Shown here: one piece after another, positions 20,165-55,713 of the stretch
Layout: every line of letters begins with the position of its first letter
How positions within the stretch are numbered: position 1 is the stretch's first letter
Source of the DNA: Ralstonia soli
Lineage (GTDB): Bacteria > Pseudomonadota > Gammaproteobacteria > Burkholderiales > Burkholderiaceae
DNA length: 64,000 nt
Assembly: GCF_023955655.1 (NCBI RefSeq)
Contig: NZ_JAMXHT010000008.1
Coordinates: forward strand, 248,001 to 312,000
Direction of reading: 5' to 3'
Notes under the pieces: model-generated
The model's input: the letters and a program-made list of their open reading frames with translations, nothing else
What the model was told of the DNA's origin: nothing
The model's database searches: none
Translations under genes and position numbers: made by a program

Positions 20165-20983
20165 ATGTCCCTGTTCTCCCGCCTTGCACGCGTGGCCGTA
20201 CCGGCCATCGCCTTTGCCGCAGTTGCCACGCTGAGCACAGCCGCCAATGCCGACACCAAACAGATCAAGCTCGGCACCATGAGCGGCCCCGACGCGCAGA
20301 TCTGGGAAGTCGTGCAGAAGGTCGCCAAGAAGGACGGCCTGGACGTCAAGGTCATCGAGTTCAACGACTACGCTCAGCCCAACCCCGCGCTCGATTCGGG
20401 CGACCTCGACGCCAACGGCTTCCAGCACCAGCCCTTCCTCGACAGCCAGATCCAGGCGCGCCATTACAAGATCGTCAATGTGGGCCTGACCTACGTCGCG
20501 CCGATGGGCTTCTACTCGAAGAAGGTCAAGTCGCTGGCGCAGCTCAAGGAAGGCGCCAAGGTCGGCATCCAGAACGACCCGTCCAACGGCAATCGCGCGC
20601 TGCTCCTGCTGCAGAAGGCGGGCGTGATCAAGCTGAAGGCCGGTGCGGGCACCAACGGCAACAACGCCACCCCGCGCGATGTGGTCGAGAACCCGAAGAA
20701 GATCAAGCTGATCGAGCTGGATTCGGCCCAACTGCCGCGCTCGCTGGATGACCTGGACGCCGCTTCCATCAATACCGACTACGCCGTCAAGAACGGCCTG
20801 ACGCCGGCCAAGGACGCAATTGCGCTGGAAGAGCGCCAGGGCCCCTACGCCAACCTGATCGCCGTGCGCGAGAAGGACAAGAACCAGCCGTGGGTGAAGG
20901 CGCTGGTGCATGCGTACCAGTCGGACGAAGTGCGCAAGTTCATCGACACGCAGTTCAAGGGCGCGATCCTGCCGGCGTTTTGA
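20165..20983 (+). CDS. metQ: MetQ/NlpA-family substrate-binding protein
   Basis: A 272-residue periplasmic binding protein of the methionine (MetNIQ) ABC importer family. Residues 1-30 are a signal peptide (ANA-DTKQ) without a lipobox. Conserved parts: IKLGTMSGPDAQIWE, VIEFNDYAQPNPALDSGDLDANGFQHQPFL, VGIQNDPSNGNRALLLLQ, and INTDYAVKNGL. ATG at 20165 follows CCACGAGGTTTCTCC, a modest ribosome site. No metN or metI lies nearby, so it would serve a transporter encoded elsewhere. The exact substrate (D- or L-methionine) cannot be read. Confidence 0.85.
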   Translation: MSLFSRLARVAVPAIAFAAVATLSTAANADTKQIKLGTMSGPDAQIWEVVQKVAKKDGLDVKVIEFNDYAQPNPALDSGDLDANGFQHQPFLDSQIQARHYKIVNVGLTYVAPMGFYSKKVKSLAQLKEGAKVGIQNDPSNGNRALLLLQKAGVIKLKAGAGTNGNNATPRDVVENPKKIKLIELDSAQLPRSLDDLDAASINTDYAVKNGLTPAKDAIALEERQGPYANLIAVREKDKNQPWVKALVHAYQSDEVRKFIDTQFKGAILPAF

Positions 20984-21171
20984 TGCTGCCTAAAAAGTAA
21001 GCGGATACTTTCGCCAAATCTTCGGAAACTGCAGGCGGCGCGCCACGGGAGCAGCAACTTCCGCGCGCGCCGCGTTGTTTTGTTGCGTTGCGCCATTCCT
21101 GTTGCCCTTGCAATCGTTTTCGCGATCGTGGCGCCTTGGCAACGCTTGGTGCATTAAGTAGTTCTACGTTA

Positions 21172-21200
21172 TTGCAACGCAACAAACGATCCGCTATAGT
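21172..21200 (+). promoter_or_regulatory. Strong sigma-70-type promoter for a short transcript
   Basis: The -35 is TTGCAA (21172-21177) and the -10 is TATAGT (21195-21200), with exactly 17 bp between. The predicted start is about 21206-21208, only about 30 bp before a stable terminator hairpin, so the product would be a short RNA. Confidence 0.65.
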
Positions 21201-21205
21201 TGGAA

Positions 21206-21268
21206 CTGTCTCCTCCACCCTCCTTGGTGGATTGCGGCCCGAGCACCTGGTGCTCGGGCCTTTTTTCT
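21206..21268 (+). ncRNA. Candidate small RNA (about 60 nt) with anti-Shine-Dalgarno-like loop
   Basis: Bounded by the promoter above and the terminator at 21236-21268. It begins with CTCCTCC (21210-21216), then forms a small hairpin: CCACC (21215-21219) pairs with GGTGG (21226-21230), leaving the loop CTCCTT. That loop is the core of the 16S rRNA anti-Shine-Dalgarno sequence and is complementary to AAGGAG. Small RNAs exposing C/U-rich anti-SD loops are known in alphaproteobacteria. No named family is claimed here; a function in binding ribosome sites of target mRNAs is inferred. Confidence 0.55.
21236..21268 (+). terminator. Strong intrinsic terminator
   Basis: GGCCCGAGCACC (21236-21247) and GGTGCTCGGGCC (21249-21260) are perfect 12-bp arms followed by six T (21261-21266). 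Confidence 0.9.
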
Positions 21269-21594
21269 TAGGGCAGCGGATTCAGGATCCGCACGGCTGT
21301 CTTGCAGACTCGCCGATTCCGGCTACGCTGATTGCTCTCTTGCAGCAGGGCGGCGTTGCCCAATCGCAACGAGCGCAATATTTTTCAAGCGTGCGCTTTG
21401 AGGCATGCCTCGAGCCCACGCTCCCGTTTTTCGGTCTTCCCCGAGAAGCGTCACTTGCGTCACGCTAACGTTGCGAATGTGCGCACAACCACGTGCTTTG
21501 TGCGGCCAACATCGCAGAAGTGCGTCAGTTTTTGTCCTACAAGGGTTTCGGCGAACCCCGGACAGTCTGACCTCCCCCCCTTTACTAAACTTCA

Positions 21595-21662
21595 CCTTGC
21601 TCTCTCTTTAGAGAGCACTCCCCCCCTTTTGAGCCCGCCCCTGTTGCGGGCTTCATTTTTTT
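21595..21662 (+). ncRNA. Possible second small RNA with C-rich linker
   Basis: A 7-bp hairpin (GCTCTCT at 21599-21605 with AGAGAGC at 21610-21616) is followed by a single-stranded C-rich stretch (ACTCCCCCCC, 21617-21626) and then the terminator at 21632-21662. Hairpin, C-rich loop, terminator is a common small-RNA plan. I do not see a convincing promoter; TTTACTAAAC near 21581-21590 could supply a -10. It may instead be the 3' end of a longer transcript. Confidence 0.35.
21632..21662 (+). terminator. Intrinsic terminator
   Basis: AGCCCGC (21632-21638) pairs with GCGGGCT (21646-21652), followed by TCATTTTTTT. Confidence 0.8.
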
Positions 21663-21737
21663 CGGGCACGATTTCTTGCATCCCGACGCCGTCGACACCG
21701 GCGCCGGAAGCTCAAAAGGTTGGGGGAATCGCTCAAG

Positions 21738-21776
21738 GCCCGCGCAGTTGAAAAGCTGCGCGGGCTTTGTTTTTTC
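21738..21776 (+). terminator. Intrinsic terminator
   Basis: GCCCGCGCAG (21738-21747) pairs exactly with CTGCGCGGGC (21756-21765), loop of 8, followed by TTTGTTTTTT. It stands 127 bp before the REC-EAL gene start and insulates it from upstream transcription. Confidence 0.85.
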
Positions 21777-21902
21777 CGGCGCCATGTTCCCCACCGCCTG
21801 ACAACGCCCGCGCGCGGTGTTTCAATGACGGCTCACGGTGGCGTCACATAGCGCAAACGGGATGCGCGGCTGCCGATACCTACAACAACAAAGGACTGGT
21901 CG

Positions 21903-55392: not shown

Positions 55393-55616
55393 GACAACTC
55401 CCCGCGGTATTTGCCGCAATGCAATAGAAAATGGGGAGGAGCGTCGCATAGGTGAAACGCGGCCACGTTGCGCCAGATCAAGGGCGGCCGTGTCCGTGCG
55501 CCCCGATGCACATTGCGCGGGGGTTTGGACTGAAATGACCATCGAACCGTCACCCGAGGGGAATTCTTACTGGCAACGCTGGCAGCCCTGTGCTTAAATT
55601 CAGCCTCGTTGGATGA

Positions 55617-55700
55617 AACAGGGGTGCCGTACGGATGGGCCGTGCGGCTGAGAGAGTCCCTTCGCACCCGATCCGGTTCGTACCGGCGTGGGAAGTTTCA
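55617..55700 (+). ncRNA. TPP riboswitch (THI element)
   Basis: Core blocks are in order: GGGGTGCC (55621-55628), GGCTGAGA (55646-55653), ACCC (55666-55669), GATCCGG, and TACCGGCGTGGGAA (55681-55694). These are the conserved P2-P5 parts of the thiamin pyrophosphate aptamer. It lies about 105 bp before thiC, where it represses the thi genes when TPP is plentiful. Confidence 0.95.
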
Positions 55701-55713
55701 GAACACCGCGTAG

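Follow-up and report, generated by a model that had tools for sequence, protein, structure and literature searches.

The RNA family RF02278 includes ncS03, ncS05, ncS27 and ncS62 of B. cenocepacia and S17 of B. pertussis (PMC5688073, PMC11722255). The CU-rich single strands of the family reportedly mask ribosome-binding sites, and for the B. cenocepacia double-hairpin RNAs 55–80% of the predicted pairings fall no further than 20 nt from a gene start (PMC5688073). Transcription of ncS03, ncS05, ncS27 and ncS62 was detected by dRNA-Seq and Northern blot (PMC5688073, PMC4603805). In glucose medium, ncS03 was 8.0-fold and ncS05 6.9-fold higher, in a study in which we found no PHB measurement (PMC5688073). 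S17 directly represses BP2158, as shown with a lacZ reporter, and 92 genes rise in its absence, 70 of which have RBS-proximal sites complementary to S17 single strands (PMC11722255). The S17 promoter has the boxes TTGCAT and TACTAT with a 17 bp spacer, and its repression in vivo was postulated, the factor being left unnamed (PMC11722255). Slowed growth on overexpression is reported for the Burkholderia members, and not for S17 in exponential growth (PMC11722255). The regulator of sRNA accumulation in B. cenocepacia is stated as unknown (PMC5688073), and a 2021 review calls the role of riboregulation in Cupriavidus necator PHB synthesis undeciphered (PMC8401924).

The second system is PhaR, the regulator that senses the storage polymer PHB. 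The R. eutropha PhaR consensus is YTKNTGCRNYGCANMAR, in which positions 1–4 and 7 from the centre are almost perfectly conserved (PMC12849132). The PhaR-bound DNA of the R. eutropha phaP1 promoter has the same dyad (PMC3570403, Table 1), and the S. meliloti PhaR motif includes the same YGCRNYGCR (PMC12542648). At the repressed phaP1, binding site BS1 adjoins the -35 box (PMC12849132). PhaR is believed to dissociate from phasin promoters upon binding to PHB granules (PMC3570403, PMC12849132, PMC11332829).

The covariance scan of the window, which is the whole 64-kb stretch of DNA analysed, matched RF02278 ("Betaproteobacteria toxic sRNA") at 21207–21267 of the forward strand. The match scored 59.1 bits against a gathering cut-off of 50, covered the full length of the model (1–64) and had an E-value of 2.4e-9 over the whole window. 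We call this gene copy B. The first-pass annotation had proposed an sRNA gene of about 60 nt with an anti-SD-like loop, and the gene proved to be a 61-nt family member with a two-hairpin fold. The architecture of RF02278 was present, namely two hairpins, of which the second is the terminator, and CU-rich sequence at the 5′ end and in loop 1. Five model positions are missing from hairpin 1, the loop of which is CUCCUU. The RNA folded at -32.9 kcal/mol (z -5.8), and 0/200 shuffles were equally stable.

All parts of the gene lie on the forward strand. The -35 box TTGCAA (21172–21177) and the -10 box TATAGT (21195–21200) are separated by 17 bp. This promoter, as first described, was recovered as the only sigma-70-type promoter in the scan of 20980–21900 (shuffle mean 0.3). 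The unpaired 5′ end UGUCUCC (21207–21213) is homologous to Site 1, the 5′ end, of S17 (PMC11722255). Hairpin 1 (21214–21231) folded as UCCACC-[CUCCUU]-GGUGGA with its loop at 21220–21225, as the annotated six-base loop closed by CCACC/GGUGG had indicated. The intrinsic terminator (21236–21266) has an 11-bp stem, a 3-nt loop and six U. The six U and the 12-bp inverted repeat of the earlier description stand, while its 12-bp stem does not, because the 12th pair cannot close a 1-nt loop. A start at CUCCUCC had also been assumed. The start is most likely UGUCUCC near 21207, at the end of the family model; the second half of CUCCUCC lies inside the hairpin 1 stem. We expect copy B to be transcribed separately as a short RNA, unlike the processed S17.

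The first 28 nt and both promoter boxes were invariant in 14/14 copy-B genes (the window's own and those of 13 other Ralstonia), and variation in the terminator stem was confined to the last pair and the loop. The anti-SD loop lies inside the invariant 28 nt. It is therefore conserved in all 14 genes, contrary to one of the outcomes under which the first-pass annotation would have withdrawn its proposal, a loop varying beside a kept terminator. The exact first 28 nt were found in 12 named contigs, nine of them labelled Ralstonia, two from Burkholderiaceae bacteria and one from Caldimonas tepidiphila. The Caldimonas tepidiphila gene has no YGCRNYGCR within 200 nt upstream.

There are two real RF02278 copies in the genome, copy A and copy B. 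From its sequence, we take the gene downstream of copy A to be rplM. A third match (C31, 30.5 bits) was rejected, being a hairpin that resembles a terminator and lacks a CU-rich leader. The covariance search proposed earlier gave over-cut-off matches in the window and in all 16 genomes of the genus, each with two, one at the copy-A score and one at the copy-B score. RF02278 was also over the cut-off in 230/249 family genomes and 75/200 order genomes. Other assignments of copy B were rejected: MmgR/suhB RF00519 (18.5 bits against 41, at 21210–21275), Neisseria NmsR (26.9 bits against 52), and SorX/SorY or anti-hemB (scores far under their cut-offs). Among 83 RF02278 members folded, 69 had CUCC or UCCUC in predicted loop 1. 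The count of 5′-CUCC in the same 83 is not independent, because in 27 rows TCTCCTCC served as the anchor wherever it occurred; in one of these (L165) the anchor is about 10 nt late.

The anti-SD reading is supported by the B. cenocepacia RNAs and S17, in which the corresponding stretches pair with ribosome-binding sites by prediction or by experiment (PMC5688073, PMC11722255). By analogy, we infer that copy B hinders translation initiation, its CU-rich 5′ end and the loop of hairpin 1 binding to Shine-Dalgarno sequences. The proposal of an anti-SD sRNA holds, and its novelty here does not, because the family has already been described in betaproteobacteria. The sRNA part is a known family, and the anti-SD idea is already published.

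Further elements lie downstream on the forward strand. A candidate sRNA at 21584–21662, which is not RF02278, comprises the hairpin GCUCUCUC/GAGAGAGC, a C-rich linker CACUCCCCCCCUUUU and a terminator. It has about 78 invariant columns in an alignment of 8 Ralstonia sequences and a sub-threshold match to MmgR RF00519 (19.2 bits, cut-off 41). Among 150 family genomes drawn, it was matched in 14 belonging to the genus, and the other two matches were 28–30 nt long. No sigma-70 promoter for it was found in the scan of 20980–21900. A third conserved element at 21709–21776 consists of GCUCAAAAGGUUGGGGGAAUC followed by a 16-bp terminator. Its opening stretch is complementary to both the C-rich linker and the terminator arm of 21584–21662. 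The two may act as an sRNA and its sponge, or may be folds of one read-through transcript; the duplex energy (-57.0; shuffle mean -40.6, lowest -59.5) is not clearly beyond shuffles. The covariance scan also placed a TPP riboswitch at 55610–55711 (67.2 bits).

The first-pass annotation described the promoter, the RNA and the terminator with nothing else between them. These parts are all present, and a PhaR-like operator around the -35 box had been overlooked. The operator TTATTGCAACGCAACAA (21169–21185, unstranded) overlaps the -35 box and has one mismatch to the published consensus. The mismatch falls on a poorly conserved position, and all ten conserved positions match YTKNTGCRNYGCANMAR. The site has the features of PhaR regulon sites, a TGCRNYGCA core with T/A at -7/+7. 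A distal dyad TTGTTGCGTTGCGCCAT (21080–21096, unstranded; 2 mismatches) is a possible second PhaR site. At ≤1 mismatch to YTKNTGCRNYGCANMAR, the 64-kb window has 2 sites against 1.08 expected, and 28/100 shuffles reach 2. The motif alone therefore proves nothing, and its position and conservation are what count. Across the genome, YTKNTGCRNYGCANMAR at ≤1 mismatch was counted 128 times and the reversed pattern 54 times, which suggests a PhaR regulon that numbers some tens of sites. Perfect YTKNTGCRNYGCANMAR sites precede ORFs that presumably are those of phaP, a porin, a substrate-binding protein and glyoxylate carboligase. We found no published link between PhaR and RF02278 in the openly accessible literature. 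An upstream motif common to three of the four B. cenocepacia homologues is reported (PMC5688073, Fig. S3); the motif itself may therefore be known already.

The ten-position motif T..TGCRNYGCA..A was sought within 120 nt. It was present at 14/14 copy-B genes (the window's own and 13 Ralstonia, a set covering 14 of the 16 genus genomes, with G006 and G011 left out). It was also present at 26/30 top-scoring family loci, which are close kin of each other (controls 0/300). The sRNAs of 26 chosen family genomes had it in 28/56 cases (controls 5/560); these are the matches of at least 50 bits among 70 of 78 listed, from 26 of 29 chosen genomes, and the other three genomes, all without phaR, had matches only under the cut-off. 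The sRNAs from other families of the order had it in 12/27 cases (controls 4/267), in a biased sample of the 27 best-scoring new loci from 200 genomes. Of the 40 sRNAs with a site within 120 nt, 19 had the site centre at -27 to -30 relative to the RNA 5′ end.

A 260-nt window was then used because 120 nt missed the further-upstream promoters of leader-type copies. Within 260 nt, the dyad served as a -35 box with a -10 box at 16–18 nt in 46/83 sRNAs of the Burkholderiales against 2/657 control windows, and this arrangement was absent from the other 37. The full 17-position consensus at ≤1 mismatch was found at 11/47 phaR+ and 2/9 phaR- sRNAs against 3/504 control windows. At ≤2 mismatches the counts were 26/47 and 3/9 against 18/504, and the reversed 17-position pattern was found at 0/56 sRNAs. 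In 14/14 copy-B genes, a second YGCRNYGCR preceded the first site by 89–100 bp, against 3/168 control windows.

Phasin promoters, the best-known targets of PhaR, were the positive control. The ten-position motif was present in 26/30, twice in 20, with 0/56 in control windows inside and downstream of the gene; the set is 30 of 56 listed matches, and loci at contig ends, with the start codon perhaps misplaced, were scored as misses. The paired motifs were 54–60 bp apart in the 19 pairs measured. The phaP of the same genome has the motif twice, at -192 and -136. The ten-position motif was found within 120 nt of copy A in 0/16 genus genomes. The bare TGCRNYGCA core was within 120 nt of copy A in 13/16 Ralstonia, and in 2 of the 5 copies examined it sits in the leader, about 30 nt ahead of where the conserved RNA starts. 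An RF02278 copy in another genome of the order (L158 of genome G383) has the boxes TTGCAT, 17 bp, TACTAT within the dyad TTGCATCGCACAA, and these boxes are the published S17 ones. Because L158 has exactly the S17 boxes within TTGCATCGCACAA, we speculate that the repression postulated for S17 may be exerted at this dyad.

The PhaR domain PF07879 occurs in the genome (contig C26, 95523–95702), in 229/249 family genomes and in 25/27 order genomes checked. The dyad core was within 260 nt of one or more sRNAs in 40/45 phaR+ and 2/8 phaR- genomes (Fisher p 0.0005, shared ancestry ignored), and counted per sRNA the same contrast gave p 0.015. With the ten-position motif at 260 nt, p was 0.019 per genome and 0.33 per sRNA. 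At 120 nt, this motif gave no significant contrast per genome (27/45 phaR+ vs 2/8 phaR-, p 0.12) or per sRNA (36/72 vs 4/11, p 0.52). All these tests treat genomes as independent of shared ancestry. The widening from 120 to 260 nt followed sight of the 120-nt result, so the 260-nt contrast was not blind, and several definitions were tried. Two genomes keep the motif without a detected phaR, G066 (83% complete) and G232 (99% complete, about 500 contigs). Five phaR+ genomes are without the dyad core (G030, G132, G034, G339 and G386).

The full complement of the first ten nt of the RNA, GGAGGAGACA, occurs at 25 genome sites, and the reversed control at 2. Two of the 25 are the sRNA genes themselves, and 20 of the 23 non-self sites sit 9–15 nt ahead of a start codon, that of pqqA in one case and those of ORFs no shorter than 60 aa in the other 19. 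Such positions are expected because GGAGGAG is itself a Shine-Dalgarno sequence. Pfam matches of the 20 candidate targets comprised four periplasmic binding proteins, one NMT1-type binding protein, an MFS transporter, a porin, two AMP-binding enzymes, a CoA transferase, an enoyl-CoA hydratase, an amidohydrolase, a FAD-binding protein, a 2Fe-2S protein, a sigma-54 activator, PqqA and three others; one had no match. The putative targets, many of them transport or catabolic genes, agree with the published target classes, and the list is a lead only.

We propose, with reasonable confidence, that copy B masks Shine-Dalgarno sequences and that PhaR holds its promoter until PHB titrates PhaR away, so that the sRNA is made and the translation of uptake and catabolism genes falls. 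The CU-rich 5′ end of copy B and the loop of hairpin 1 would pair with the Shine-Dalgarno sequences of mRNAs. PhaR would bind over the -35 box of the sigma-70 promoter; with the site there, repression is predicted, to be lifted once PHB forms. Under surplus carbon, PHB granules would draw PhaR off the DNA and the sRNA would be derepressed. More sRNA would mean less translation of transporters and catabolic enzymes, a storage-polymer brake on carbon uptake. Copy A, whose -35 box is without an intact PhaR dyad, should respond differently. PhaR binding at the copy-B promoter, induction by PHB and the targets in this genome are predictions. The higher B. cenocepacia RNA levels in glucose medium would fit derepression.

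Another regulator with the same half-sites, or simply a favoured -35 context, could account for the dyad with no part for PhaR. The chance frequency of the bare motif in the window speaks for this reading, as do the two phaR- genomes that retain the motif, the phaR contrasts that were not significant, and the RF02278 copies without the dyad that have plausible promoter boxes. On the other side, the half-sites, the one-base centre and the flanks are those of the PhaR consensus and the phasin promoters, and the dyad is absent from 6/8 genomes without phaR. We regard this explanation as unlikely. It is very unlikely that PhaR binds and activates the copy-B promoter, since the site covers the -35 box, next to which BS1 lies at the repressed phaP1, and the B. 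cenocepacia homologues rise in glucose medium as derepression would give (again with no PHB measurement found in that study). The repressive sign is nevertheless read from the site position alone, because R. eutropha PhaR can also activate, as at phaP3 (PMC12849132).

The RNA itself might be a general translation brake that masks Shine-Dalgarno sequences without real target choice, the "toxicity" being its function. The family takes its name from inhibited E. coli growth (PMC5688073, PMC4603805), and ncS27 slows growth when overexpressed and speeds it when silenced (PMC5688073). Overexpressed S17, however, left the exponential growth of E. coli intact and caused only a modest defect on entering stationary phase, and 92 genes rise without S17 (PMC11722255); the growth effect of ncS27 is described as seen on some substrates and absent on others (review PMC10987360). 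A brake of this kind appears quite unlikely to us. That the locus is a functionless terminator-like repeat with no transcript is hardly credible. The copy-B gene is known from sequence alone, but its RNA core and both promoter boxes are invariant in 14/14 genes, and its B. cenocepacia homologues were detected by dRNA-Seq and Northern blot in the cited work. PhaR repression of a target-directed copy B is the reading we prefer.

Extended to the Burkholderiales, RF02278 sRNAs would form the RNA arm of the PHB switch, with PhaR, either DNA-bound or taken up by PHB granules, setting their level and stored carbon leading to translational repression of uptake and catabolism; we lean towards this wider view. 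The PhaR-like operator seems to us more interesting than the anti-SD loop. An operator on the -35 box offers one testable answer bearing on the gaps left by PMC5688073, PMC11722255 and PMC8401924. If true, it would connect the storage of carbon with the post-transcriptional regulation of its uptake in a large order that includes industrial PHB producers.

The B. cenocepacia double-hairpin RNAs are like copy B in sequence, fold, length (about 60 nt) and the RBS-facing CU-rich 5′ end and loop (PMC5688073). ncS03, ncS05 and ncS62 are short primary transcripts, like predicted copy B, whereas ncS27 can be processed. S17 has the same 5′ region and pairs with ribosome-binding sites through Sites 1 and 2, but it is an RNase E product of a 190-nt precursor (PMC11722255), in contrast to the short transcript predicted for copy B. 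The described S17 targets include a sigma-54 activator, as do the candidates here, in which the sigma-54 activator L226 has the perfect complement of the first ten nt of the RNA. Copy A, with its leader upstream of the presumed rplM, resembles S17 and ncS27 more. Neisseria NmsR, as described, also turns unpaired CU-rich stretches to the RBS of metabolic genes (PMC5688073), and differs from copy B in its tandem copies. The closest regulatory parallel is MmgR (RF00519) of S. meliloti, a short trans-acting sRNA lowered by PhaR/AniA, with a promoter dyad (PMC12542648, PMC8401924). MmgR differs in being an alphaproteobacterial RNA of another family, with a described effect on phasins. PhaR over RF02278 would be a variant of this PhaR-MmgR arrangement, its new point being the likely PhaR control, and alpha- and betaproteobacteria would then share the logic of a small trans-acting RNA under PhaR, with unrelated RNAs.
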